From: Symmachiella dynata
GTDB taxonomy: Bacteria; Planctomycetota; Planctomycetia; Planctomycetales; Planctomycetaceae
Assembly (NCBI RefSeq): GCF_007747995.1
Contig: NZ_CP036276.1
Coordinates: 3,029,001 to 3,093,000 of the forward strand
Direction: 5' to 3'
Length of the DNA: 64,000 bases
Shown here: positions 26,607-42,281 of the stretch, piece after piece
How positions within the stretch are numbered: position 1 is the first letter of the stretch
Layout: every line of letters starts with the position of its first letter
Notes under the pieces: generated by a model
What the model was told of the DNA's origin: nothing
The model's input: only the letters and a program-made list of their open reading frames with translations
Databases searched by the model: none
Position numbers and translations under genes: made by a program

Positions 26607-28097
26607 TTAGCTAAACCGTCCCGCCACCTCCACCAACGTCCGCACCATCACCCCCGTCGCACCCCCCTCTTGGTGAGGTTGGTTTTTGTCCGAAAACGCC
26701 GGGCCGGCGATGTCCAGATGGACCCATTTGGTGTCCCCCACAAACTGCTCTAAAAACTTAGCGGCCGTGATCGCGCCGCCCCATTTGCCGCCGACGTTTT
26801 TGATGTCCGCCACGTCGCTTTTGATCAATTCGTCATACAGCTCGTACATCGGCATCTGCCACAACAATTCTCCGCGGTCTCGCGAAGCGGCCAGAACGGT
26901 GTCGCACCATGGTTGATCATTCGTAAACGCTCCGACAACATCGTTGCCCAGCGCCACCATGCAGGCGCCGGTGAGCGTGGCCAGATCGATGATGCAATCC
27001 GCCTTCTGATCGACGGCATAACTCAGCACGTCGGCCAGAACCAAACGGCCTTCGGCGTCGGTGTTGTGCACTTCGATCGTCACACCATTGCGAGCGGTGA
27101 GTACGTCGCCCAACTTGTATGACGATCCGTTGACCATGTTTTCGGTCAGTCCCATCAACGCGACGACGTTTACGGGAAGTTCCAATCGCGCAATCGCAAT
27201 CATCGCTCCCAACACCGTCGCGGCGCCGGCCATGTCCATTTTCATATCCAACATGCCGGCGCTCGGCTTGAGGGACAGTCCCCCACTATCAAACGTGACC
27301 CCCTTGCCGCACAAGTACAACGTTGGAGCGTCCTCCGCACTGCCGTTGTGTTTGAGACTCACCATTCGCGGTGGTTGATCGCTACCACGGGCGACGCCGA
27401 GTAGGGCTTCCATTTTCTCTTCACGCAAACGGTCCTCGTCAAAGATTTCGCAGCCCAGTCCGTATTGATTTGCCAAGCCTTCAGCAACGGCGGCAAAGCT
27501 GATTGGATTGATGTCCTGTGCCGGGCGATTCACCAGGTCACGTGTGAGGTTGACCGCTTCGCCAAAAATCTGTCCGCGATCAATTGCCGATTGCAGCTCC
27601 GTTTCGTCATCCGCCGGAGCAATGACGACGGTCGCGTTTTCGAACGCGAAACGTTTTGGCTCCCGATGATAAATCCCCTGCCCCATACAGCCGATTTCCA
27701 ATGCGGCAACCGCCGTTTCCAATTGGTCAGCCTGCGAACAACCGTCGCGCGACAAATCCGGCAGCGCGATGGCAATCGTCGTCGTTTCCTTCGAAGAGAC
27801 CAGCCGTGCTGCGGTCATTACCGCTTTGTGCAACGACGCGCGCGTGATTTCCTCCGGTTTTCCGACCCCCAGCAGTAGGACACGCTTGGCGGCGATATTC
27901 GCCGCATCCAGCAACGCCACGGTTTCAGCGTTTTCCCCAGTCAGATCCTTCGCCTCTCGGACCCGAGAAATCGATCCTCCCAGTGATTCGTCCAGTGCCG
28001 ACACGGTCGCCGGAAATCCGTCCGCTGCGGGGATTCCCACAATGAGCCAATCCGCTGGTACAGAATCATAATTTTGCGTGACCAATTGAAAATTCAT
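26607..28097 (-). CDS. pepA: Leucyl aminopeptidase (M17)
   Basis: 496 residues starting at ATG 28097 (MNFQLVTQNYDSV). The catalytic half has the M17 signature NTDAEGRLVLADVL (about 345-358), the KGVTFDSGGLSLKP segment with metal and catalytic lysine residues, and DMAGAATVLGAM. The N-terminal domain is the usual macro-like fold. It removes N-terminal amino acids from peptides in the cytoplasm as a di-zinc or manganese hexamer. AAGGA lies ten bases before the start. Single gene, divergent from the cytochrome c/propeller gene at 28340. Confidence 0.93.
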   Translation of the reverse strand: MNFQLVTQNYDSVPADWLIVGIPAADGFPATVSALDESLGGSISRVREAKDLTGENAETVALLDAANIAAKRVLLLGVGKPEEITRASLHKAVMTAARLVSSKETTTIAIALPDLSRDGCSQADQLETAVAALEIGCMGQGIYHREPKRFAFENATVVIAPADDETELQSAIDRGQIFGEAVNLTRDLVNRPAQDINPISFAAVAEGLANQYGLGCEIFDEDRLREEKMEALLGVARGSDQPPRMVSLKHNGSAEDAPTLYLCGKGVTFDSGGLSLKPSAGMLDMKMDMAGAATVLGAMIAIARLELPVNVVALMGLTENMVNGSSYKLGDVLTARNGVTIEVHNTDAEGRLVLADVLSYAVDQKADCIIDLATLTGACMVALGNDVVGAFTNDQPWCDTVLAASRDRGELLWQMPMYELYDELIKSDVADIKNVGGKWGGAITAAKFLEQFVGDTKWVHLDIAGPAFSDKNQPHQEGGATGVMVRTLVEVAGRFS

Positions 28098-28194
28098 GGC
28101 AGATTCGTCCTTGGTTATCTTCGAGTGTGCAAGATGGGATTTTCGGGAGCCGTCAATTCGAGCGAATCGATTGTCGAAAAGCAAGGGCGGTCGG

Positions 28195-28215
28195 CGGACG
28201 ATTCTGTCGTCCGCT
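28195..28215. other. Strong hairpin in the pepA divergent region
   Basis: GCGGACGA/TCGTCCGC, 8-bp arms and a 5-base loop (TTCTG), in the 242-base gap between pepA and the next plus-strand gene. No T-tract follows. It may be a leader structure of the downstream gene. Confidence 0.4.
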
Positions 28216-28339
28216 GCGGTGGCGATTCCGCGGAGCCGCGGTTAAACTATATGTCTCCCGCCCCTTTTGCTTCGCCGACTCCAACAATGTCATCTGCCGG
28301 CGCATTCCTCGCACGAAGGCCACAAGGAAATCTGTCTTT

Positions 28340-31300
28340 ATGAACACCCGGACTTGCCACTTGCCGTTAATTGCTTCCCTCGTCCTGCTCGCGTTAGCTT
28401 CAGCCCCGCTGTCTGTCTTCTCGGCTGACGACGAGGAAAAACCACTCGCCGACCGCCTGCCCCGTATCCCAGCCACCGAATCGGATAAGGCTTTAGACAC
28501 GTTTGAGGTCCAACGCGGCTTCTCGCTGGAAACAGTCGCCCACGAACCAAACGTTGCCGACCCCGTCAGCGCTTGTTTCGATGAAAACGGACGCATGTTC
28601 GTCGCTGAAATGCATGGTTATCCCTACTCGCAGGAACCGACCAAACTGAATCCTAAAGGGGGCGGCAAACAGGATGCAGGCATCGTGCGGATGTTGGAAG
28701 ACACCAATGGCGACGGCATCTATGACCGCAGTGTGGTTTTTGCTGACAAGATCAGTTGGTGCACGTCGGTGCTGTGTTATCGCGGCGGCGTGTTTGTGAT
28801 TTCACCGCCCCATATTTACTACTTCAAAGACACCAACGGCGACGACGTGGCAGATATTCGTGAAATCGTCTATTCCGGATTTGGCCGCGGCAACGTACAA
28901 GCCTTGCCCAACAATTTGAAGTGGGGCTTGGATAACAGAATCTACGGCGCCGGCGCCAGTCTGGGGGCGGAAATCACCAATCGCGGTGAGAAGATGGCCA
29001 AAATTGGCCAACAAGACTTTCGCTTCGACCCGGTCAGCGAAAAACTGGAACCGCAGTCAGGCGGCGCACAATTCGGGATGTCGTTCGACGATTGGGGCAA
29101 TCGCTTTTTGGCCACCAACAGCAATCACATGATTCACGTGGTCTATCCCTATGAATATTTGGTGCGAAATCCGTATCTGCCGGTCCCCGGTGTGACGCGG
29201 AGCATCGCCAAAGAAGGGGGAGCGGCTCCGGTCTTTCGCCGCAGCCCACCCGAGCCGTGGCGGGTTGTACGGACGAAGCGGCGGATGGAAAATCCCAAGT
29301 TCGCGAAGAATGCGGGAACCGAACGTTTTGCCATTGGATTTTTCACATCGGCCACCAGCCCCACGATTTATCAAGGCAACGCCTACCCACCCGAGTATCG
29401 CGGAAACGCCTTCATTGGCGATGTCGGCGGCAATCTGGTTCATCGGAAAACTGTGGAATCCGACGGCGCAAGTTTCGTTGCCACCCGTGCCGATGAAAAT
29501 GTGGAATTTATCGCCTCGACCGACAACTGGTTCCGCCCGGTCAATTTCGTCAACGCCCCGGACGGCACGTTGTATGTGCTCGATATGTATCGCGAAACCA
29601 TTGAACACCCCTATTCGATCCCCGAAGACATCAAGGCGCACCTCGACCTGGAAAGCGGCCACGATCGCGGGCGGATCTATCGCCTCGTCAGCCCCGACAT
29701 GCAGCGCATCAAGCCGCCCAAACTCGGAAAAGCCTCGGTCGAGGAACTGGTCAAAAACCTGGAATCGCCGAACATCTGGAACCGCGAAACAGCGCAGCGT
29801 CTCATCTGGGAACGCCAAGACAAATCGGCCGTTGCCCCGTTACGAAAACTTTTACGCGAATCCTCATCCGAATTGGGCCGCCTGCACGCGCTCTGCACGT
29901 TGGACGGCATCAAGTCACTCAAAGCCGACGATGTGCTGATTGGACTGTCTGATCCGCATGCCGGTGTCCGTCAACATGCGGTCCGCCTCTCCTCGACTGT
30001 GGCTGACAAGTCGTCGGAGGTGATGTCCCAACTCGTCGAACTGGTCGACGACCCCGACTATCGCGTCCGTCTGCAATTGGCATTCACCTTAGGAGACATC
30101 GCCCAGGAAGAAGCGGCTGAGGCGCTCGCACAAATGGCGATCCAATACTCCGACGACAAGGAAATGCGGATTGCCATCCTGTCCTCAATGACCGCCAATG
30201 CCCCCGCTGTGGCGCTGCGATTGTTGGCGAACGATAAATTCCGCAATACCGCTCGATCAGCAGAAATCTTATCGCTACTGGCCGGAATCGTGGCCTCAGG
30301 CAAAAACCCCACGGAGACGGTCAAGCTCTTAGCCGCCATCAGCACGCTTCCCGAGGATTCGCTCAACGTGCAGCGGCGGATGCTCAAAGCCATTGGCGAA
30401 GGCTTGGCTCGCAACAAATCCTCGATCGGCAAATTGCTGGCCGGCGATAAAAAACACAAAGTCCCAGACGACGTGAAACAAAGCGTCGCCGCTTTATTCA
30501 CACGAGCCGGTGAAACAGCGATTGATGAGAAAGCGCCCCCGGCCAATCGCAGTGCGGCTGTCGAAATCTTGGCCTATGCCGACTTCGATACGGTGGCGGA
30601 CACGCTGACTGAATTGATCACGCCGCAAACGCCGACTGCACTGCAAATCGCCGCTGTCAATGCGCTCTCCACGCAAAACGACGCGCAAGTCGCCGGTGTC
30701 TTACTCGAGGGTTGGCGCGGTTATTTCCCCGCAGTCAGAGCCGCCGTGATCGAAGCCTTGATTCGCAGCGACGACCGGACTCAGCAACTGCTCGTTGCGA
30801 TGGGAGATGGTGAAGTCACCTCGGCCGAGTTACCGCGCGATAAAAAACAGTTACTGCTGAACCATCAAAACGACAAGATTCGCGCCGCTGCTCGCAAATT
30901 GTTTGGCGGCGAAGTCTCCGGAGATCGTGGTAAGGTCGTCGCTGAGTATCAAGCAGCACTTGAATTGGAAGGCAATGCCGAGCGCGGCAAAAAAGTCTTC
31001 GAGAAGACCTGCTCCGTCTGCCATAAGGTAGGTGAACTTGGCGTGCAAGTGGGACCCGATTTGGCCTCTACGCAAAATAAAACGCCACAAGATCTACTGG
31101 TCAATATCCTGGACCCCAACCGCGAAGCCTTGCCGCAATACACGACCTATAGCGTGGTGACCTCGGCGGGCAAAACCCTCTCGGGCATCGTCACCGGCGA
31201 AAGCGCCAACAGCATCACCCTGCTCCGTGCCGAAGGCAAACAGGACGTCGTGCTGCGGGCGGAAATTGATGTCTTAGCGTCGAATGGCGTCTCGCTGATG

Positions 31301-31390
31301 CCCGAAGGCCTCGAAAAAGACATTCCGCCCCAAGCGATGGCGGATCTGTTGGCGTTCATACGTCAGATTAAACCCGCCAAAGCCAAATAA
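28340..31390 (+). CDS. PVC-type propeller/HEAT-repeat cytochrome c protein
   Basis: 1016 residues from ATG 28340, preceded by AAGGAAA. A signal peptide (residues 1-30, cleavage near VFSADD) precedes a propeller domain of the 'membrane-bound dehydrogenase' type (about 50-460; MLEDTNGDGIYD, YYFKDTNGDDVAD). HEAT-like helical repeats follow (about 465-840; DPDYRVRLQLAFTLGD and similar), and then a c-type cytochrome domain with CSVCHK at about residue 890 and the typical GPDLASTQNKTPQDLLVNILDPN downstream. It is predicted to be a periplasmic dehydrogenase with one covalent haem; the substrate may be a sugar or alcohol. It is followed by a DUF1080 protein, a frequent neighbour of this family. Confidence 0.9.
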   Translation: MNTRTCHLPLIASLVLLALASAPLSVFSADDEEKPLADRLPRIPATESDKALDTFEVQRGFSLETVAHEPNVADPVSACFDENGRMFVAEMHGYPYSQEPTKLNPKGGGKQDAGIVRMLEDTNGDGIYDRSVVFADKISWCTSVLCYRGGVFVISPPHIYYFKDTNGDDVADIREIVYSGFGRGNVQALPNNLKWGLDNRIYGAGASLGAEITNRGEKMAKIGQQDFRFDPVSEKLEPQSGGAQFGMSFDDWGNRFLATNSNHMIHVVYPYEYLVRNPYLPVPGVTRSIAKEGGAAPVFRRSPPEPWRVVRTKRRMENPKFAKNAGTERFAIGFFTSATSPTIYQGNAYPPEYRGNAFIGDVGGNLVHRKTVESDGASFVATRADENVEFIASTDNWFRPVNFVNAPDGTLYVLDMYRETIEHPYSIPEDIKAHLDLESGHDRGRIYRLVSPDMQRIKPPKLGKASVEELVKNLESPNIWNRETAQRLIWERQDKSAVAPLRKLLRESSSELGRLHALCTLDGIKSLKADDVLIGLSDPHAGVRQHAVRLSSTVADKSSEVMSQLVELVDDPDYRVRLQLAFTLGDIAQEEAAEALAQMAIQYSDDKEMRIAILSSMTANAPAVALRLLANDKFRNTARSAEILSLLAGIVASGKNPTETVKLLAAISTLPEDSLNVQRRMLKAIGEGLARNKSSIGKLLAGDKKHKVPDDVKQSVAALFTRAGETAIDEKAPPANRSAAVEILAYADFDTVADTLTELITPQTPTALQIAAVNALSTQNDAQVAGVLLEGWRGYFPAVRAAVIEALIRSDDRTQQLLVAMGDGEVTSAELPRDKKQLLLNHQNDKIRAAARKLFGGEVSGDRGKVVAEYQAALELEGNAERGKKVFEKTCSVCHKVGELGVQVGPDLASTQNKTPQDLLVNILDPNREALPQYTTYSVVTSAGKTLSGIVTGESANSITLLRAEGKQDVVLRAEIDVLASNGVSLMPEGLEKDIPPQAMADLLAFIRQIKPAKAK

Positions 31391-31528
31391 CGGCGGCGCA
31401 CTTTTTTTCGCGACCAATTGCCGCCGCTGCGCGCTTTGATTATTGTCAGAACAGAATGCTCAAGCGCGAACCGCGCTAATGCGTACCTGCACACCATTTT
31501 CCAAATGTACACTTGGGAGAAGATACCG

Positions 31529-32176
31529 ATGTTGAAAGCCGTGAGTTTGACTGCTGTTGCCGTTATGTGCCTGTTGCTCGTGGTCCCGATGGACTCCGGC
31601 GCCGCTGAAAAGGCGGACGAGCAAGGCTGGATTAGCCTGTTCAATGGAAAAGACTTTACCGGTTGGCGGATCAGTGAAGATGGAGACTGGAAAGTCGAAG
31701 ACGGCGTGATCGTCGGCGGCGGCAATCGTTCGCACGTCTTCAGCGACAAGAAATTCAAGGATTTTGAATTCAAGACCGAATGCCAACTCGAGCCGGGCAG
31801 TAACTCGGGTGTCTATTTCCACTCCGATTACGTCGAAACCTGGCCGGTGGTGGGCTTGGAAGTCCAACTCAACAACACACACGGCGACCCGCGTAAAACC
31901 GGCAGCCTGTGGGGCGTGACCCATGCTTTCGAATCAGCCGCTAAAGACAACGAATGGTTCGAACTGCACGTCAAAGTTGTCGGCAATCACGTGCAAACAT
32001 TCGTCAATGGAAAAATGATCATCGACTACATTCAGCCCAATGGAGTCACCGACGATCGCCGCGTCCGCGAAGAAGGGGGCAGTTTCGCCCTGCAGGCGCA
32101 CGATCCGAAAAGCGTGATGAAGTTCCGCAACATCCGCGTGAAGCCGTTGGATAGCAAAAAATCGAAAGATAAATAA
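31529..32176 (+). CDS. DUF1080 protein (3-keto-disaccharide hydrolase domain)
   Basis: 215 residues from ATG 31529 with GGGAGA ahead. Signal peptide (1-27, cleavage near SGAA). The rest is one concanavalin-like DUF1080 domain: WISLFNGKDFTGW (33-45), SNSGVYFHSDY and VGLEVQLNN are standard. Members bind or hydrolyse 3-keto-glucosides; they are very abundant in planctomycetes and secreted. Located 138 bases after the propeller cytochrome gene and probably co-transcribed, ending at the terminator downstream. Enzyme activity versus carbohydrate binding cannot be decided here. Confidence 0.88.
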   Translation: MLKAVSLTAVAVMCLLLVVPMDSGAAEKADEQGWISLFNGKDFTGWRISEDGDWKVEDGVIVGGGNRSHVFSDKKFKDFEFKTECQLEPGSNSGVYFHSDYVETWPVVGLEVQLNNTHGDPRKTGSLWGVTHAFESAAKDNEWFELHVKVVGNHVQTFVNGKMIIDYIQPNGVTDDRRVREEGGSFALQAHDPKSVMKFRNIRVKPLDSKKSKDK

Positions 32177-32208
32177 TCATCGTGAAACGATGAAAATGGC
32201 ACAAGCTA

Positions 32209-32243
32209 AACAGCCCTCGGACACACCCCGAGGGCTGTTTTCG
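32209..32243 (+). terminator. Rho-independent terminator after the DUF1080 gene
   Basis: A GC-rich hairpin, ACAGCCCTCGG pairing with CCGAGGGCTGT around a short loop, followed by TTTTCGTTT. It starts 33 bases after the stop codon. Confidence 0.85.
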
Positions 32244-32445
32244 TTTCCCAACCAATAGACTGCACAAAAATACGACATGCTGGTCATTCACATTTTGTTG
32301 GATACCGCGCACGCTCAATCGGTCTGCCGGGCGAAAAAATTAGACTTGCCATTTCCAGAAACCAGCGAATCCCAGTACAGTGCATACCGTCGACTCGGCG
32401 ACTGTGCGTTGGTCACTTGCACCGACAGTTTTGGGAAAAAACACC

Positions 32446-34644
32446 ATGCATCCGCTCTGCAGCTCAAGGATCATGACAACCGTACTGCTCACGCTGTTGT
32501 CATACGCAATCACTTCTCCTGCCAGTGGTGAACCACCACAGCGTTGGCAGCCGGGCGATCCGGCTCAGGTATTACCGGGACTCATTCCTGCTCCGGCTGA
32601 AATTCCCGGCATCGGACGCTGGCAGGCGATGCCGTTGCCAATCCGCAGCTATGTCAAATCAATCAAGTTCAGCCCTAACGGCAAATCGTTCGCATTCGGA
32701 GATGGGCATTATGTGCGGATTCATGACACAAACTCCATGCAACTGACCGGCGTGCTTGTCGGTCATACCGGCAACGTCACCTCGCTCGACTGGAGTCCCG
32801 ATGGCCAGTGGTTAGCCTCTGCTGCTACTGACAACACCATCCGACTGTGGCAGGCCGACGGTGTTCCTGGACCGGTTTTGGAGGGACATACCGACACGGT
32901 TACCGGTGTCGCCTGGCAGCCGCAGGGCACGCTGCTCGCATCAACTTCGCTCGATGGCACCATTCGCTTTTGGCAACCCGATGGGAGTCCGGGACAGATC
33001 ATTCGCGGGCACGAATCCCCCGTGCGCATGCTGGATTGGCATCCCGGCGGAAAACAACTCGCCGCCGGCGATGAGAATCAACAGGTCCGCATCTGGACTG
33101 TCGACGGACAACCGGGACCGGTCCTCAATGGCCACGTCGGCCCAATCACCGCCGTGCGATATAGCCCCGATGGCAATTGGCTCGCGTCAGGAAGTTCCGG
33201 CGTGGTTGCGGGTGAAGAGCCGCAAACCGTCGCACCAGCCGTCCGATTGTGGACCCCCGATGGAAAAGCGGGACCGGTCATGCAGGGGCATTCCCGGAAA
33301 ATCAATGCCCTGGCCTGGAGCCCCGATAGTCAGCAGTTGGTCAGCGCCGCCGAAGACCGATCGGCCTTGATCTGGAATCTTGACGGAACACGAACGGGAC
33401 GCGTCGAAGAAGAGGACGAAACCACGAATTTAATCTTTGCCATCGACTGGCATCCGGTGCATAACTATTTCATCGTCGGCGGCCGGTGTGTTGTCCGTTA
33501 TCTCACGCTCAACGGTCAAATCGGCCCGAGTAAATTGATCCGCCCGCGCGGCTCGAAACTGATGTTCGTCGATTGGAATCCCCAGGAGGATAAAATCGCT
33601 GTCGCCGGCCGCGACGGAACAATCGACATCTGGTCATCCGATTTCGAAGTCCGCCAAACGATCGAAGCCTTTCGAACCCCCGTCACTTGCGTTCGTTGGA
33701 GTCCCGATGGCAAACAATTGGCCTCCATCGCCTATCATGCGTTAAAAGTCTGGAATACTTCCGGAGAAAACATTCTCGGATTCCCGTTGAAAGGATCGGT
33801 CAGCCGCGACTTGGCTTGGACGGCCGACGGGCAACATTTGGCCGCGGTCACGAGCAGCGGCGGACAGGTCTTTCTCTTCGATGAAGAGGAGGAAATCCAA
33901 AACTTCACGCTGCACAACGCCCAAATCCATGGCGTGAGTTTCAGTCCGGACGCCACGCAATTGGTCACCGTCGGCGGCGATAGTTACCTCCGCTTGCACG
34001 AACTCAAAGACAACGCGAAGGGACGTTCTCCTGGAGCGGTACTCAAAGTTCCCGATGGCGATGTCGATGCGGTACAATTCAGCCCCGACGGCAAATGGAT
34101 CGCCTCAGGACACGCCACCACGGCACGATTGTGGCACCCCGATGGAACAGCCGGACCGGTCATCCCCGGGTTTACCGCCGCGGTGTTGCGACTCGATTGG
34201 CGCCCCGATGGCCGGGCCTTTGCCACCGCCAGTTGGGATACGAGCGTCAAAATCTGGAAAACCGACGGCAGCCTGCTTCACGAATTGCCACCACATTCCG
34301 CCCCCTGCTGGGGTATCTCTTTCAGCCCCGACGGCAAAAAAGTGGTCACCTGCGGTTGGGACGGAATTCTGCGCGTGATCGATATCGAATCGGGTGCCGT
34401 GCTCGCCGTCGCGGTCTATGTCGCCGACACGAAAACGATGGAAGCCCCCCACGATGAACGCCGCCAATCACCACTCAGTTTTAACCGCGCCGGCCAATTG
34501 CTTTCCGGTGATCGAAGCATTCTAGAATCCCGCATGGTCTACCTCGTCCAGCAACCCTCCGGGGCGATGAAGATTCTTAAGCCTTCGGAATTCTTCAGTC
34601 AGGCCCCGGGAGCAGATTTGACATCAGCCACAGCGAATCCATAA
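32446..34644 (+). CDS. WD40 repeat protein, first of a tandem pair
   Basis: 732 residues from ATG 32446, with a signal peptide (about 1-27). The mature chain is almost entirely WD40-like repeats, about 13-14 units of roughly 41 residues: e.g. WSPDGQWLASAATDNTIRLW, then a connecting PDGxPGPVLxGH between blades. That would make two seven-bladed propellers. It begins with PPQRWQPGDPAQVLPGLIPA after cleavage and ends in PSGAMKILKPSEFFSQ. WD40 propellers are protein-protein interaction platforms; exported ones are a planctomycete speciality. The next gene is a paralogue with identical layout. Function unknown. Confidence 0.85.
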   Translation: MHPLCSSRIMTTVLLTLLSYAITSPASGEPPQRWQPGDPAQVLPGLIPAPAEIPGIGRWQAMPLPIRSYVKSIKFSPNGKSFAFGDGHYVRIHDTNSMQLTGVLVGHTGNVTSLDWSPDGQWLASAATDNTIRLWQADGVPGPVLEGHTDTVTGVAWQPQGTLLASTSLDGTIRFWQPDGSPGQIIRGHESPVRMLDWHPGGKQLAAGDENQQVRIWTVDGQPGPVLNGHVGPITAVRYSPDGNWLASGSSGVVAGEEPQTVAPAVRLWTPDGKAGPVMQGHSRKINALAWSPDSQQLVSAAEDRSALIWNLDGTRTGRVEEEDETTNLIFAIDWHPVHNYFIVGGRCVVRYLTLNGQIGPSKLIRPRGSKLMFVDWNPQEDKIAVAGRDGTIDIWSSDFEVRQTIEAFRTPVTCVRWSPDGKQLASIAYHALKVWNTSGENILGFPLKGSVSRDLAWTADGQHLAAVTSSGGQVFLFDEEEEIQNFTLHNAQIHGVSFSPDATQLVTVGGDSYLRLHELKDNAKGRSPGAVLKVPDGDVDAVQFSPDGKWIASGHATTARLWHPDGTAGPVIPGFTAAVLRLDWRPDGRAFATASWDTSVKIWKTDGSLLHELPPHSAPCWGISFSPDGKKVVTCGWDGILRVIDIESGAVLAVAVYVADTKTMEAPHDERRQSPLSFNRAGQLLSGDRSILESRMVYLVQQPSGAMKILKPSEFFSQAPGADLTSATANP

Positions 34645-34709
34645 ACGAATTCACGCAACGGAATGAGTTGCCAAGAAGACAACGTTATGACTTCACAAAG
34701 GAAAATCGC

Positions 34710-36914
34710 ATGAAATCGCTAAGTCGCTCGTGGTTCTTCGCCATCACCGTACTCACGTTGCTATCCCCGTTGGGAAGTCGCATCGCTTCCGCTGCAGATG
34801 CGGCCGACTGGCAACCCGGTGATCCAGCCAAGGGACTTCCCGGTTTAATTCCCGCTCCTGCTGAAATCCCTGGGCTGGGACGTTGGCAGATGATGCCGTT
34901 GCCGCTGCGGGGATATATCGAGATGGTCGCCTTCAGCCCCGACGGAAAATCGATCGCATTCGCCGACGGCGGGTACGTGCGGATTCATAACACCTTCTCC
35001 ATGAAATTAACCGGGGCTCTGCTCGGGCATAACGGCAATGTACGAGATATTGACTGGAGCCCTGACGGCAAATGGATTGCCACAGCTGGTGAAGATTCCA
35101 CAGTACGCATCTGGAAATCAACCGGCGAGCCGGGACCGATTCTCAAGGGGCACACCGCGGCCGTGCGAGCTGTTGCCTGGAATTCCGACAGTCAATCACT
35201 CGCTTCCGCGGGGCTGGATGGAACCATTCGCTTTTGGCAGACCGACGGCACGCCGGGCATCGTGATTGATGGTCACAACGCGCCAGTGCATACGTTGGAC
35301 TTCAGCCCCGATGGCAAAACCTTAGCGGCCGGTGATGAGAACCATCTGGTCCGACTGTGGAACGTCGATGGTACAGCCGGACCTGTTTTAAAAGGACACT
35401 TGGGAGCGATTACCGAAGTGGAATGGAGCCGCGACGGTGCTTGGTTGGCCACCTGCGATACAGGGCGCGTTCCCGTGTTGCTGGGGCAAGCGCAAGAACC
35501 GACCATCCGGCTGTGGACACCCGATGGTAAACCCGGTCCCGTGTTAAGCGGACATTCACGTTCCATCAATGCCATCACTTGGAATCCTGATAGCAAAAAA
35601 CTGGTCACAGCTGGCGAGGACCGCCAGGTGATTGTCTGGGATACCGATGGCAATCAACTCGAAGTCGTGGACCAGGGACGCAAGGATCGAAACGATGTCT
35701 TCGCGCTCGACTGGCATCCTGACAAACCGTTCTTTGCCGCTGGCGGAAGATTCTCCGTTCGATATTTTTCGCCAAACGGCCCATTCGGCCCGACCAAGTT
35801 AATCCGCTTGCCGGGGACCAAGCTGGAATGCATCGACTGGAGCCCGCAAGACGAGACGTTGGCCGTTGCCAGCCGCGATGGCACGGTCCGCATCTGGTCC
35901 AACGGCCTGCGGTCAGAAACAATCATTGTAGCGCATAATCGGCCGACGAATTACGTTCGTTTTCATCCCGACGGAAAACGACTGGCAACTGTCAGCTTCG
36001 ATGAATCCTTACGTGAGTGGGACACAGCCGGCAACCTGCTTCAAACGCATGCGGTGAAAGGCTTTATTGGACGATGTATCTCCTGGTCCCAGGACGGTGA
36101 TTTATTGGCCGCCTGTTACCGTTTCAACAAAGGGAATTGCGCCGTTTTTCGCGACGGAAAAGATCAGGAAAGCTTCGTCATGCACAATGGCCAGCCGCTT
36201 TCGCTTGATTTCAATCCCCAGGGCACACAAATTGTCAGCGGAGGCGGCGATGGAAAAATCCTGCTCACGCGACTGACCACTGACGATACGCAACGGCAGA
36301 CGCTTGCAGAGCTAACCGCCGACGACGGCGATGTCGACTCGGTTGCCTGGAGCCCCGATGGAAAATGGATCGCTTCGGGACACGATTCGTCCGTGCGGCT
36401 ATGGCATCCCGACGGACAGGCTGGACCGGTCATGAGTGGCTTCGAAGCTGCCGTCATGCGGTTGGATTGGAGCCCGGACAGCAAAATGCTCGCCACAGGC
36501 AGTTGGGACACGACCGTTCAACTTTGGAATGTGAACGGCGAAATGATCCGCAAACTCCCCGGACATGCGGCCCCCTGTTGGGGCGTGTCGTTCAGCCCCG
36601 ATGCCTCCCAATTGGCGACATGCGGTTGGGACGGCGTGATGCGTCTCTTGGATACCAAAACCGGAGAGATTCAAGCACTGGCCATCTTTGTGGCGGATAC
36701 GGAAGTGATTGAAAACGACATCAACGAACGCCGCCAAGCCGCCGTCAGCTTCAATCGCGCCGGGCAAGTCCTGTCAGGGGACCCCCAGATTCTCGACGCC
36801 CGATTCGTCTACCTCGTCGAACAACCCTCCGGCGCAATGAAAATTCTTAAGCCCTCGGAATTCTTCAGTCAGGCCCCGGGAGCAGATTTGAAAACGACCG
36901 GAAACGATGAGTAA
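34710..36914 (+). CDS. WD40 repeat protein, second of a tandem pair
   Basis: 734 residues from ATG 34710, preceded by AAAGGAAAA. Signal peptide with cleavage near ASAADAA (about residue 29). Same architecture as the preceding gene: an opening WQPGDPAKGLPGLIPAPAEI, about 14 WD40 blades with PDGxPGPVLSGH linkers, and the ending PSGAMKILKPSEFFSQ. The two proteins look well over half identical, and the last 60 or so bases of the genes are nearly identical at DNA level. The gap between them is 65 bases without a terminator, so they are probably one operon. Function unknown; likely periplasmic scaffold. Confidence 0.85.
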   Translation: MKSLSRSWFFAITVLTLLSPLGSRIASAADAADWQPGDPAKGLPGLIPAPAEIPGLGRWQMMPLPLRGYIEMVAFSPDGKSIAFADGGYVRIHNTFSMKLTGALLGHNGNVRDIDWSPDGKWIATAGEDSTVRIWKSTGEPGPILKGHTAAVRAVAWNSDSQSLASAGLDGTIRFWQTDGTPGIVIDGHNAPVHTLDFSPDGKTLAAGDENHLVRLWNVDGTAGPVLKGHLGAITEVEWSRDGAWLATCDTGRVPVLLGQAQEPTIRLWTPDGKPGPVLSGHSRSINAITWNPDSKKLVTAGEDRQVIVWDTDGNQLEVVDQGRKDRNDVFALDWHPDKPFFAAGGRFSVRYFSPNGPFGPTKLIRLPGTKLECIDWSPQDETLAVASRDGTVRIWSNGLRSETIIVAHNRPTNYVRFHPDGKRLATVSFDESLREWDTAGNLLQTHAVKGFIGRCISWSQDGDLLAACYRFNKGNCAVFRDGKDQESFVMHNGQPLSLDFNPQGTQIVSGGGDGKILLTRLTTDDTQRQTLAELTADDGDVDSVAWSPDGKWIASGHDSSVRLWHPDGQAGPVMSGFEAAVMRLDWSPDSKMLATGSWDTTVQLWNVNGEMIRKLPGHAAPCWGVSFSPDASQLATCGWDGVMRLLDTKTGEIQALAIFVADTEVIENDINERRQAAVSFNRAGQVLSGDPQILDARFVYLVEQPSGAMKILKPSEFFSQAPGADLKTTGNDE

Positions 36915-36947
36915 AACCTTGCCTGTTAGTCAGGGAAATGTAAATCA

Positions 36948-37463
36948 ATGCGACGCCTCACACCTGCAATTCTGATGATTGCTCTCGCTGGATGCGGTAT
37001 TGAGGATTCTAATCCGGAGGACAGCAGTTACACCGGCGAAGAAGCGAAATCGCACTTGTCACTTTGCGATCCGGAACATCTCCCCGAATCAATGACTGAC
37101 CTCTGGGTCTACGATGGTGGTAGTTTCGGTGGCATGATTTATTACGTGTCGTTTCAATGCGAAACGCTCGAGGATTGCTGGGCGGCTGTCCGTGAATTCC
37201 GTGCACCAGAGGCAACCGAATTCGCCAATCGCATTCAAACCAAATTCGCGGTGAATCAGCATGGTCCAAGTTTCTACTTCAAGAACCTACAACATCCACA
37301 CTGGGATGTCTCGCAAATAAAAAATGGCGTCTCCTATGAAACGGATCGGAGTGATGAGCATATGGATTTCTGGGCCATTGATCTGGACCGGCTGCGCGTA
37401 TACTTTCATCATGAGTCCGGAGGCTTCCCCGATGACCCGCCATCAGTCCGCCACGGCAGGTGA
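36948..37463 (+). CDS. Small lipoprotein of unknown function
   Basis: 171 residues. The N-terminus is a lipoprotein signal with lipobox LAGC (residues 13-16, lipidated Cys16), followed by a negatively charged linker (EDSNPEDSS). The mature part contains two further cysteines close together (CETLEDC) and a GPSFYFKN motif; I recognise no family. It starts 33 bases after the second WD40 gene and may belong to the same transcript, so an outer-membrane or periplasmic association with the WD40 proteins is possible. Confidence 0.7.
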   Translation: MRRLTPAILMIALAGCGIEDSNPEDSSYTGEEAKSHLSLCDPEHLPESMTDLWVYDGGSFGGMIYYVSFQCETLEDCWAAVREFRAPEATEFANRIQTKFAVNQHGPSFYFKNLQHPHWDVSQIKNGVSYETDRSDEHMDFWAIDLDRLRVYFHHESGGFPDDPPSVRHGR

Positions 37464-37632
37464 GCTACGATGAGAGATCAGCACACGGTGCTTTGAAGCC
37501 ATAGGTTTGGATTTTCAGCGTATTTCACCGCAATGTTTCTCAACCGAAAAAATTCCGATAGAACTGCGTCTAACTTGTTGTAACTAGATATCTCCCTGCC
37601 GTTGAATTCCGAACCGTTGGAAACACCCCGAC

Positions 37633-38427
37633 ATGTCCGATTCCCATCTCTGCACCATCGCCCAGCATGGCGTCGCCTGGCTCACCATGAACCGCCCCGA
37701 GAAGCGGAATGCCCTCACACGGACATTACTGGCGGAGTTGTTGGTCGATGTCCGCAAATTAGCGGCGAATTCTGATGTGCGGGTGATCGTCTTGAACTCA
37801 ACCGGCCCGGTGTTTTGCGCCGGGATGGATTTGGCCGAAATGCAGGAGGTCGCTCAAAGTCCCGACGCGGAAGATTTTTGGCAGCAAGACGCACAACTTT
37901 TTTGCGACCTGCTCACTGCCCTGTTCACCGCCCCCAAGCCGGTGATCGCCATGCTGCAAGGTCCAGTCCTTGCCGGCGGCGTTGGATTAGTTCTCGCCTG
38001 CGATCTGGTGCTGGCCGCCGACACCGCCTTTTTCTCGCTCCCCGAACCGCGGCGCGGCATTGTCGCCTCGATCGTCACCCCGCTCTTGGCCTATCGCGCT
38101 ACCGCCGGTGGCGCCTCGTCGTTACTCCTTTCCGGGGAACGCATCGCTGCCACCCGCGCCCGAGAATGCGGCCTCTGCCACGATGTCGTCTCAGCCGAAG
38201 AGCTGAGCGGACGCCTGGAAGAACTGATCGCCGCACTGCTGACCAATTCACCGCAAGCCCTGGCCGAAACCAAACGCCAGTTGATGGTCACCGCCGGCGC
38301 CAACGTCGTTCAACAACTCGAAGCGGCCGTCGATGCCTCCGCAGCAGCACGAAAAACAACCGATGCGCGCGAGGGACTCGCTGCTTTCCTAGAAAAACGA
38401 TCGCCCCATTGGCAGCCGGAAGATTAA
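37633..38427 (+). CDS. Enoyl-CoA hydratase/isomerase (crotonase) family protein
   Basis: 264 residues, the normal length. Oxyanion-hole motifs are GPVFCAGMDLAEM (about 57-69) and GPVLAGGVGLVLACD (112-126); the catalytic region has FFSLPEPRRGIVA with the conserved glutamate. Start MSDSHLCTIAQHGVAWLTMNRP is typical. It would act on acyl-CoA thioesters in the cytoplasm, by hydration, isomerisation or dehydration. No other beta-oxidation or leucine-degradation gene is adjacent; the next gene is convergent. A methylglutaconyl-CoA hydratase-like role is possible but not demonstrated. Confidence 0.88.
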   Translation: MSDSHLCTIAQHGVAWLTMNRPEKRNALTRTLLAELLVDVRKLAANSDVRVIVLNSTGPVFCAGMDLAEMQEVAQSPDAEDFWQQDAQLFCDLLTALFTAPKPVIAMLQGPVLAGGVGLVLACDLVLAADTAFFSLPEPRRGIVASIVTPLLAYRATAGGASSLLLSGERIAATRARECGLCHDVVSAEELSGRLEELIAALLTNSPQALAETKRQLMVTAGANVVQQLEAAVDASAAARKTTDAREGLAAFLEKRSPHWQPED

Positions 38428-38446
38428 CCTACCGCGTACGGCGCGA

Positions 38447-39151
38447 CTATTTCTCCAACCCCTCAAACAAGCGGCTGCCAATACGCACCATCGTCGCCCC
38501 TTCCTCGATGGCGATTTCCAAATCGCCCGACATCCCCATCGAAAGTTCCGGCAACGCAAGTCCCTCGTGCGCAGCAATCAGTTCGTCACGCAGATTCCGC
38601 AAACCGGCAAACGTCGCGCGGGCTTCACCAGGATCACGCGATTCGGGCGCCATCGTCATCAGTCCGCTCACCTCGACATGCCGACACTCCGCAACGGCAT
38701 CCCAAGACGCGCGCAACTCCTCAGGAGCAAACCCCCCCTTGGTCGCCTCGCCGCTGACATTCACCTGCAACAGCACCCGGGACGTCAGATTCAATTCTTC
38801 CGCCACACGATCGACCGCCCGCAATAGCTTCAGCGAATCAATCGAATGGATCAATCCGGCGACCGGCAATGTTTTACGAATTTTATTACGTTGCAAATGC
38901 CCGATGAAATGCCAACAAACCTCGTCGCCCAGCAACGGACTCCGCTGGATCAATTGTTGAGGCCGTGATTCCCCCAACTCGGTCACCCCCATCGCAACCA
39001 ACGCCTGCACCCATTCCCATTGGGCATATTTGACCACCGCAATCAACGTCACCGATGACGATTCGCGTCCCACGCGTGCGCAGGCATCGGCAATTTGTTG
39101 CTGTACCGATTCGTAATTCCGATGAATCGTCTCAGATGTCGTTGTCATCAA
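38447..39151 (-). CDS. YggS family PLP homeostasis protein
   Basis: 234 residues. The conserved YggS/PROSC parts are present: AVVKYAQ (PLP lysine at about residue 41), HFIGHLQRNKI, LLQVNVSGEATKGGF, GLMTMAP and LSMGMSGDLEIAIEEGATMVRIGS (phosphate-binding end). YggS binds pyridoxal phosphate without known catalysis and buffers PLP in the cytoplasm, affecting amino-acid metabolism. It converges with the crotonase gene with 19 bases between stops. The usual proC or cell-division neighbours are absent. Confidence 0.92.
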   Translation of the reverse strand: MMTTTSETIHRNYESVQQQIADACARVGRESSSVTLIAVVKYAQWEWVQALVAMGVTELGESRPQQLIQRSPLLGDEVCWHFIGHLQRNKIRKTLPVAGLIHSIDSLKLLRAVDRVAEELNLTSRVLLQVNVSGEATKGGFAPEELRASWDAVAECRHVEVSGLMTMAPESRDPGEARATFAGLRNLRDELIAAHEGLALPELSMGMSGDLEIAIEEGATMVRIGSRLFEGLEK

Positions 39152-39418
39152 TGTCGTTCACTCGTTGCTGTCACTAGCATAAGTCGCGGGCGCAAGTCAT
39201 CTGCTTTGGTGCCTACCGAGAAACACAGCCTCCTATGCTGCACCTCCCATCCCAGACCATACGTCGCCCGCGCCTCTGAATCAATCGAATCGGCTGTCAC
39301 GTCGGTCAAGCATTTGCCAAAGACCGACGATTTTGTTAATGGTCTAAACCCGGCTACCGTTTATGCAATGTACTTCATGATGCACCACTTTACTCTGTTT
39401 GATTTCAACGAGGATTCG

Positions 39419-40321
39419 ATGAGTTCCACAACTTGGTTGACACGATGCAGCCTCTTCGCTGCATCTCTGGTGATTTTCTCGCAGTCCGTGACCGCGGCAG
39501 AACCGAAACCCGAATTGTTGTGGCCTGATGGTGCTCCCGGTGCGGTGGGCGACGAACCGCTCGACAAACCGACGATCACTATCTTTCCTGCCCCAGCGGA
39601 CATCGCCAACGGCGCTGCCGTGGTGGTTTGTCCCGGTGGAGGATATGGGGGATTGGCGGCTGGCTACGAAGGGGACGACGTTGCACGTTGGCTCAATACG
39701 CTGGGTGTGACCGGCGTCGTCTTACGTTATCGACTCGGGCCACGCTATCACCACCCTGCCCCGCTGCAGGACGCCCAACGCGCAATTCGCACCATCCGTG
39801 CGCGGGCCAAGTCCCTAGGCATCGACCCCGAGCGGATTGGGATTCTCGGCTTTTCCGCCGGTGGCCATCTGACCTCCACAGCCGCCACGCATTTTGACAA
39901 CGGCGAAGGCAAATCGGCTGACCCAATTCAACGCGAGAGCAGCCGGCCCGATTTTGCCATCCTTTGCTATCCGGTGATTTCCATGACCGATGAAGCAATG
40001 ACACACAAGGGTTCGCGGAGAAATCTTTTAGGCGACAAACCCTCAGCAGAGTTGATGAATTCGGTCTCCAGTGAGAAGCAAGTCACGGAAAATACTCCCC
40101 CCTGCTTTTTGTGGCACACAACCGGCGACAAAGGCGTGCCCTCTGAAAATAGCATTGCGTTTTATTTGGCATGCAAAGAAAAAGGGGTGCCGGTGGAGAT
40201 ACACATCTTCGAAAAAGGACGTCACGGCTTGGGGTTGGGCAAACCGGACGAGGCCGTTTCAGCTTGGCCTCCCTTGTGTGCGACATGGTTGAAGGAACGC
40301 GGCCTTTTGAACAAAAAGTAA
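39419..40321 (+). CDS. Exported alpha/beta hydrolase, acetyl-xylan-esterase-like
   Basis: 300 residues from ATG 39419, five bases after GAGG. Signal peptide (1-27, cleavage near VTAAEP). The start of the mature protein (LLWPDGAPGAVGDEPLDKPT) is typical of planctomycete BD-FAE-like esterases. Motifs: CPGGGYGGLA (71-80), nucleophile Ser146 in GFSAGGH, Asp in TTGDKGVP and His in KGRHGLGL. It probably removes acetyl groups from polysaccharides in the periplasm. It resembles the hydrolase at 4424-5377 in fold but not closely in sequence. Single gene. Confidence 0.87.
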   Translation: MSSTTWLTRCSLFAASLVIFSQSVTAAEPKPELLWPDGAPGAVGDEPLDKPTITIFPAPADIANGAAVVVCPGGGYGGLAAGYEGDDVARWLNTLGVTGVVLRYRLGPRYHHPAPLQDAQRAIRTIRARAKSLGIDPERIGILGFSAGGHLTSTAATHFDNGEGKSADPIQRESSRPDFAILCYPVISMTDEAMTHKGSRRNLLGDKPSAELMNSVSSEKQVTENTPPCFLWHTTGDKGVPSENSIAFYLACKEKGVPVEIHIFEKGRHGLGLGKPDEAVSAWPPLCATWLKERGLLNKK

Positions 40322-40470
40322 AGCGGCCTTGGTAATGATGGCGGTAGATTGCGACAGTTGCGTGAAGCAGGTCACAGTGATTTCAAGTCTGCGTGACTAT
40401 GATGCATGCAGACGACAGTCGGGACTGCGCAAAGGTCACGTTCAATGGTAGTGCGAAGGGAGTCTGGGAA

Positions 40471-41124
40471 ATGCAAAAGTCTGACCGACTTGTGTTGGTC
40501 TTAATGGTGGGTGGCGTGCTGGTCATGTTGTTGTGGATGATACGCGCCGCGAATCTGTTCCCCTCCTCAGACTCGCCCCAACCCGGGTTTGGCCTCGCTC
40601 CGGGAGCCCCGGCCCCGGCCATCAAGGCCGTCGGTTGGATCAACGGTGAAGCCCCGACTGCGGAATCACTCGAAGGTAAAGTGGTTGTTGTGGATGCTTG
40701 GGCGTATTGGTGCGGCTACTGCATGCAGGACGCACCGGAATTGATCGCACTCTACAAAACCTATGAGGGGCAAGAAGACGTCGTTTTTATCGGGCTGACC
40801 GCAGAAGGTGAAGCAAACTTAAGCGACTCGCGGGAGTTTGTAAAACAGGCGGGGTATCCGTGGCCCAACGGTTACGGCGCCTACGAAACCATGCTGCAAT
40901 ACGGCAACAGCTACTTGCCTGCTGCGTGGGTGATCGGCCGTGATGGCAAGGTCACTTGGAACTTGGGGATGGAGCACATCGAAAGCATGAAAGAAGCGAT
41001 CGACCGCGCTTTGGCGACTCCGCCCCCCAACGCTGCTCCAACCGAAGAAGAAGCTGCAGCCACCGCCGATGGCCCTAAAAACGCCGCTGACAGCGCTGAT
41101 TCCAATGAATCCCCAGCCGAGTAA
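40471..41124 (+). CDS. Membrane-anchored TlpA-like thioredoxin
   Basis: 217 residues from ATG 40471. An N-terminal membrane anchor spans about 8-25; a thioredoxin-fold domain follows with active site WCGYC (80-84, Cys81 and Cys84) preceded by VVVVDAWAY. The cis-proline region is YLPAAWVI. The C-terminal 35 residues form an acidic alanine-rich tail. TlpA/ResA-type proteins reduce disulfides outside the cytoplasm, for instance in cytochrome c maturation, which would suit an organism rich in c-type cytochromes. CGYC is an unusual dipeptide compared with CPPC or CEPC. Confidence 0.85.
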   Translation: MQKSDRLVLVLMVGGVLVMLLWMIRAANLFPSSDSPQPGFGLAPGAPAPAIKAVGWINGEAPTAESLEGKVVVVDAWAYWCGYCMQDAPELIALYKTYEGQEDVVFIGLTAEGEANLSDSREFVKQAGYPWPNGYGAYETMLQYGNSYLPAAWVIGRDGKVTWNLGMEHIESMKEAIDRALATPPPNAAPTEEEAAATADGPKNAADSADSNESPAE

Positions 41125-41333
41125 CACTCCTATCGGTAGACAACATCCACAGGGATGGTGATAATCCTTGTTCGCTGAAAATCGGCCACCGACGCGTGTT
41201 TTTGTGGTTGTTTTGGCGAGATCAATGCCGGGCGTTTTCTTTTCAGCGGTCCGCCAATACCAAGCCATTGCCCTCGCATTCGGCGACGCAAACACGATTT
41301 GCTGCCTATCTTTTCTAAGAATCCAACAATCGA

Positions 41334-42281
41334 ATGGCCGACTCTCTTTCTCCATCCCGCATTCAAGAATTGCGGGACCGACATTACAACGCCACCGTGG
41401 TGGACCTGCGGCTCATCCATGACGAATTGATGGTCATCCGCATCCGCCCCGACGAGCCCTTCCCGCAATTTCGCGGCGGACAATATACGGTCATCGGTCT
41501 GGGCAACTGGGAACCGCGCACTTCCGGTTCGCAAGCGGAGCAACTCAGTGAAAAAGACCTGAAAAAGGTCGTCAAGCGCGCCTACTCCATATCCTGCCCG
41601 GTCCTTGTGGATGGCAAATTGGTAGCCGCTCACGATATGGATTATCTCGAATTTTATATCGCCCTGGTCCGTGTCGCCGATCGCAAGCCACCGGCGCTGA
41701 CACCGCGACTGTTCGCGCTCAACAGCGGCGATCGGTTATTTCTCGGCGGCAAAATTACCGGACATTACACGCTGGAGCAGGTCGCCGATGACGATGATGT
41801 AATCCTGCTGGCCACCGGAACCGGCGAAGCGCCGCACAACGCCATGCTCGCTGAACTGCTACAGCGCGGGCATCGCGGTAGGATCGTTAGCGCTGTCTGC
41901 GTGCGGTACCGTAGCGATTTGGCCTACATCGACACCCACAAACAGGTCGTCGCCGATCATCCCACGTATGCCTATTGTCCAATGACCACCCGGGAGCCGG
42001 AAAACCTCGACGAAGCTCACCCCAATTATGTCGGCAAGCAATACCTGCAAAAGTTCATCACGTCCGGCGAACTGGAAGACGCACTCGGCCATCCGCTGAA
42101 CCCTGCCAAAACGCACGTCTTTTTGTGCGGCAATCCGGCGATGATCGGCATCCCTGAAATCAACGACGGTCAACGCGTTTATCCGCAGCCGACCGGTGTG
42201 ATCGAAATTCTTGAACAGCGCGGCTTCCAAGCCGACGAAACCGGCGCGCCGGGCAATATACATTTTGAGAAATACTGGTAA
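41334..42281 (+). CDS. Ferredoxin--NADP reductase family protein
   Basis: 315 residues. The FAD-binding half has FRGGQYTVIGLG (46-57) and RAYSISCP (82-89); the NADP half has LLATGTGEAPHNAML and a C-terminal HVFLCGNPAMIG. The final residues end in HFEKYW, typical of the bacterial Fpr subgroup with a C-terminal aromatic residue. It moves electrons between NADPH and ferredoxin or flavodoxin in the cytoplasm. An inserted loop (EPRTSGSQAEQLSEKD) sits between the FAD motifs. No ferredoxin gene is adjacent. The gene is 78 bases before the symporter gene and may be co-transcribed. Confidence 0.87.
   Translation: MADSLSPSRIQELRDRHYNATVVDLRLIHDELMVIRIRPDEPFPQFRGGQYTVIGLGNWEPRTSGSQAEQLSEKDLKKVVKRAYSISCPVLVDGKLVAAHDMDYLEFYIALVRVADRKPPALTPRLFALNSGDRLFLGGKITGHYTLEQVADDDDVILLATGTGEAPHNAMLAELLQRGHRGRIVSAVCVRYRSDLAYIDTHKQVVADHPTYAYCPMTTREPENLDEAHPNYVGKQYLQKFITSGELEDALGHPLNPAKTHVFLCGNPAMIGIPEINDGQRVYPQPTGVIEILEQRGFQADETGAPGNIHFEKYW

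Follow-up and report, generated by a model that had tools for sequence, protein, structure and literature searches.

Why do two neighbouring genes that agree at only 60.0% of their bases end in almost the same stretch of DNA? The question arises in a 64,000-nucleotide stretch of Symmachiella dynata DNA (the window), where genes A and B lie in tandem, in the same orientation and at nearly equal length. An earlier note on this DNA had suggested recent duplication with gene conversion, or strong constraint at the C-terminus. The features on which the argument turns are these:

32446..34644, plus strand: gene A, 732 amino acids, probably an exported WD40 protein (open reading frame and translation, Pfam WD40, 93% amino acid identity to the orthologue in the sister species G001).
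34537..34621, plus strand: tail block copy 1, at the 3' end of A; matches copy 2 at 79 of 85 bases, 37 of them in one exact run.
34622..34709, plus strand: the last codons specific to A (TSATANP, stop) and the A–B spacer; no significant match in either congener, and missing at the G001 locus.
34710..36914, plus strand: gene B, 734 amino acids, probably an exported WD40 protein (open reading frame and translation, Pfam WD40).
36807..36891, plus strand: tail block copy 2, at the 3' end of B, offset from copy 1 by 2270 bases.
36892..36914, plus strand: the last codons of B (KTTGNDE, stop), common to the single G001 gene.
36948..37463, plus strand: a small lipoprotein-like gene, 171 amino acids, 33 bases after B; present in G001 (89%), with no match in G002.

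Residue-by-residue alignment of A and B over 732 codons gave 52.9% amino acid identity, and Pfam PF00400 (WD40) scored above the Pfam cut-off in both (E = 2.6e-96 for A and 4e-104 for B). The two proteins open with a common LPGLIPAPAEIPG and end in a common PSGAMKILKPSEFFSQ, as the earlier note had reported, and their lengths agree with its two exported proteins of about 730 residues, a size for which its word "giants" was too strong. Export was judged by eye from signal-peptide-like N-termini; a 19-residue hydropathy scan at a threshold of 1.6 picked out no segment at either N-terminus. A structure model of B (mean pLDDT 75.3, pTM 0.58, three-sequence alignment), in which the arrangement of the halves is uncertain, is predicted to adopt a beta-propeller fold. 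Its top two Foldseek matches in the PDB were the WD40 propellers 2ymu and 1nr0 (E = 5.0e-47 and 1.3e-34; TM-scores 0.44–0.60), a likeness of fold only at this pTM. Just upstream of A, the window encodes a large protein with DUF7133, HEAT repeats and cytochrome c (28343–31387), followed by a 3-keto-disaccharide hydrolase-family gene (31532–32173).

The 3' ends are indeed closer than the rest of the genes. Identity in the tail block (79/85 bases) compares with 1190/2004 bases in the body (A residues 30–697), and the tail contains the longest exact run shared by A and B, 37 bases, the second longest being 17. We compared codons at identical residues only, leaving out M and W. In the tail (A residues 698–725), 22 of 26 codons matched, compared with 135 of 324 in the body, so synonymous identity is not uniform along the genes. 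A permutation scan of codon labels, with a scan length chosen from the tail itself, gave p = 0.0019 (100,000 shuffles), and the longest run of identical codons, 12, equalled the maximum across 20,000 shuffles. A local excess of synonymous identity of this sort is the pattern expected of gene conversion, and it supports that part of the earlier proposal. Near the other end of the genes, 12 of 26 codons matched in a 40-codon stretch from residue 41, close to the body level, and the common opening is, by its codons, amino-acid conservation.

The genus sample comprised three genomes: the window genome (G000), the sister species (G001) and G002. G001 carries a single WD40 gene at the locus (L039; hereafter G1A), whose protein shares 93% identity with A and 53% with B. 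The one WD40 gene of G002 (hereafter G2; L041, also L057), 57% identical to A and 49% to B, is followed by an enoyl-CoA hydratase-like gene, as judged by translation. Two further paralogues in the window genome are termed P3 and P4. In the body, synonymous identity between G000 and G001 orthologues was 480/590 (0.81) for A and G1A, 469/590 (0.79) for P3 and 521/582 (0.90) for P4, which has diverged more slowly than the other two. The A–B tail, at 0.85, resembles this species-level divergence, and over 84 bases the tails are nearly equidistant (80 matches for A–G1A, 78 for A–B and 78 for G1A–B). These values suggest that the homogenisation of the tail is roughly as old as the G000/G001 split.

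The bodies tell of a much older separation. A recent whole-gene tandem duplication followed by fast body divergence would fit the order, orientation and near-equal length of the two genes, but we consider it extremely unlikely. Body synonymous identity between A and B is 0.42, which sits with the other deep comparisons (0.35–0.45) and far from the 0.81 of A and G1A; this divergence rules out the recent duplication that had been suggested. A clade of A, G1A and B that excludes G2 was also marginally rejected (p-AU 0.0435; group tested after the tree was seen). By codon divergence, A and B appear to be old tandem paralogues, with B far older than the G000/G001 split. The 300-base 5' regions of A and B, considered as a possible mark of whole-gene duplication, shared short words only (best E 0.13).

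Strong constraint on the tail, whether on the protein (sorting or anchoring) or on the DNA or RNA (a regulatory element), would account for the conservation of the tail at the residue level across paralogues, where ten columns are invariant in eight sequences. Protein-level constraint, however, leaves the identical codons unexplained. Synonymous codons of the tail are not kept with G2 (5/17 for A–G2) or in the P3 comparison (7/18), and the orthologous A–G1A tail (23/27 codons) is no more conserved than the body (480/590). Because of the A–G1A and A–G2 results, homogenisation is a better account of the block than base-level constraint, and we regard strong constraint as very unlikely. An Rfam search of the tail returned no match at gathering thresholds, and the idea of an RNA or DNA element was dropped on this result and on the lack of synonymous conservation with G2 or P3. 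The tail block is most likely a short gene conversion tract between A and B.

Constraint for sorting or anchoring also fares poorly on the distribution of the motif. A profile built from the last ~60 residues of eight family members matched 17 places in 59 genomes at E ≤ 0.01, the matches falling in 6 genomes. Four places are in the window genome: A, B, the M56–WD40 paralogue P3 and the WD40 paralogue P4. C-terminal sorting signals of the PEP-CTERM-like kind end many exported proteins that are otherwise unrelated, whereas the A/B motif occurs in the window genome only in its own WD40 family and is internal in three other loci, where 456 (L079), at least 492 (L083) and 288 (L086) residues follow it. 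The motif thus does recur in other proteins, but in the window genome all of these are WD40 relatives. A sorting tag is therefore unlikely. In the model of B, residues 687–721 are built as strands and two short helices, with low confidence (48–61 pLDDT in 10-residue blocks), and as modelled the tail is a small strand–helix module that follows the last propeller and is more than a terminal tag. The internal copies, YLVE..G....PSEF-like, lie in large planctomycete open reading frames; the stretch examined of the one in L079 contained no SPDG-like words.

The G001 locus shows where the block lies relative to a rearrangement. G001 DNA aligned without gaps to window positions 27515–34619 at 91.7%, and a second alignment, at 88.4%, covered 36323–41776, starting inside the paralogous body of B and spanning the end of B and the lipoprotein-like gene. 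The G001 gene has the body of A and the last codons and downstream flank of B, with the junction inside the tail block; past the block, five 20-base bins matched B at 18–19 of 20 bases, compared with 2–9 for A. The unit missing from G001 is 2270 bases, the offset between the tail copies. Codons of G001 in the block are A-like up to GGG and then B-like at GCA, at CCC and after the block. The switch takes more than one clean step: AAG, an A-like codon, comes after the first B-like codon; upstream, CTC is B-like amid A-like codons; and two block codons occur in G001 only. The tail block is best read, from these alignments, as the point where A and B became joined.

The earlier note had also raised the possibility of a conserved WD40–WD40–lipoprotein order, which the two congeners do not share: G001 has one WD40 gene and the lipoprotein-like gene, and G002 has one WD40 gene and no lipoprotein match. 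We considered whether G2 might be a chimera of A and B. The excess of A–G2 over A–B identity is greatest at A residues 320–520 (0.60 vs 0.45, then 0.56 vs 0.34), and A–B identity is the higher at residues 220–320 and 520–600. Neither site patterns nor regional trees showed a clear breakpoint, and the idea was set aside.

We favour a history, with a probability of about 0.6, in which an ancestral A–B tandem of old paralogues existed in the genus and collapsed in G001. Around the time of the G000/G001 split, a short conversion tract with a core of about 57–70 bases would have copied the tail between A and B. The resulting direct repeat could then have served as a crossover site, and recombination across it in the G001 lineage would have removed 2270 bases, made up of A's own end, the spacer and the body of B, and left a fused A–B gene. 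Collapse is favoured because homogenised tails require A and B to have been in one genome. Against it, if the tandem descended vertically from before G002 branched off, B must have been lost a second time, in G002.

Possible but rather doubtful is the reverse course, in which the ancestor, like G001, carried one gene and DNA bearing B recombined at the tail in the window lineage. One crossover, as when a circle integrates, would give A with a new end, the spacer, B, and the old end with the lipoprotein-like gene. The end products are the same as those of collapse, and one event replaces two losses. A search for B orthologues in G001 and G002 found none, every match there at E ≤ 1e-60 being G1A, G2, P3 or P4, and DNA searches with the spacer region (34622..34709) gave a best outside match of E = 0.104, in G001, and none in G002. 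In addition, the third residue after the last leucine of the tail is T in G2, P3, B and G1A and another residue in A, a faint hint that the G001-type end may be the older end of gene A. An incoming B would, however, still need a tail ~93% like that of A with a body 53% like it, which implies that A and B had already been homogenised in some genome. The G+C and GC3 of B (0.571 and 0.621) also resemble those of A (0.583 and 0.637), and no donor appeared at the thresholds used. Outside the genus, 170 family genomes gave no match at E ≤ 1e-60. At E ≤ 1e-45, matches occurred in 6 of 397 class genomes drawn evenly; the three that belong to other genera gave 32–39% identity. A GTDB contig scan returned two loci, G002 and one weak 28% match.

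In the body tree, the order of B, G2 and P3 is hardly resolved. Its best version places B outside A, G1A and G2, the branches around B are weakly supported (64/96 for this placement and 48/57), and a grouping of B with P3 was kept by the AU test (p 0.274). Since only two congeners were compared, loss in G001 and gain in G000 are indistinguishable. A third course, that WD40 paralogues in the genus swap bodies or copy number through the conserved tail as a recurrent recombination hinge, seems to us quite unlikely; if it were true, single, tandem, A-type, B-type and fused forms would alternate within populations.

The small lipoprotein gene that the earlier note had placed close behind B is present as the 171-residue open reading frame, with a lipobox-like LAGC judged by eye and no Pfam or NCBIfam match. 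We considered whether it travels with the WD40 tail; a 73% relative in genome G434 matches the window only across the lipoprotein gene, in 3235 bases compared, and this idea was rejected. In locus L068 (304–744, 1501–2019), from another genus, a 73% lipoprotein relative lies near an open reading frame whose product has the N-terminal domain of a phage integrase (PF13495), a neighbour which hints that the lipoprotein gene may move.

What A and B might do is suggested by their relative P3. In the window genome, locus L042 (4170–8077; C1, about 4122–4126 kb) encodes a BlaR1-like M56 peptidase (PF05569) joined to WD40 propellers, and a BlaI-type repressor gene (PF03965) lies immediately upstream. 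P3 has four hydrophobic segments, the last at 408–426, ahead of the propellers, and P3 is possibly a sensor in which a WD40 propeller replaces the penicillin-binding sensor. A kinase–WD40 relative (L047) has one hydrophobic segment between the kinase and the propellers. BlaR1 membrane topology served as our model for propeller location. Together with the segment layout of these two proteins and the signal-peptide-like starts of A and B, it suggests that the propellers of A and B are extracytoplasmic. Over ~705–712 residues, A and B align at 48–49% with the propeller half and tail module of P3, but they differ from BlaR1-type M56/BlaI pairs in having a short N-terminus where the M56 membrane part would be. 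Before the linker common with P3 there are fewer than 35 residues, too few for an M56 domain, and PF05569 was absent from the best 25 of 43 Pfam matches for A and the best 25 of 44 for B. There was also no BlaI-type gene among the four window neighbours scanned. We infer that A and B are related to P3 as sensor-side or scaffold proteins that lack the membrane part. According to PMC5587647, certain Planctomycetes are enriched in WD40 proteins, and the products of neighbouring genes are often kinases.

Short-tract gene conversion and direct-repeat deletion between tandem paralogues are known together as concerted evolution. A and B resemble such cases in carrying a homogenised tract in otherwise diverged neighbours, and in the fused gene of the sister species, whose junction lies inside the common tract. 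They differ in that the tract is very short (~57–85 bases) and lies at the extreme 3' end of genes otherwise 60% base-identical. The event would thus be of a known kind, ordinary recombination between related neighbours, in a WD40 family found here in one genus only. Among the entries listed in our literature search, no title or abstract opening described the A/B case. The locus is an easily read example of homogenisation over a very short tract, in bacterial paralogues whose DNA is only ~60% identical, and G001 shows the apparent crossover product of recombination between the A and B tails. A "conserved C-terminal motif" in two neighbouring genes can be a trace of recombination rather than of function.
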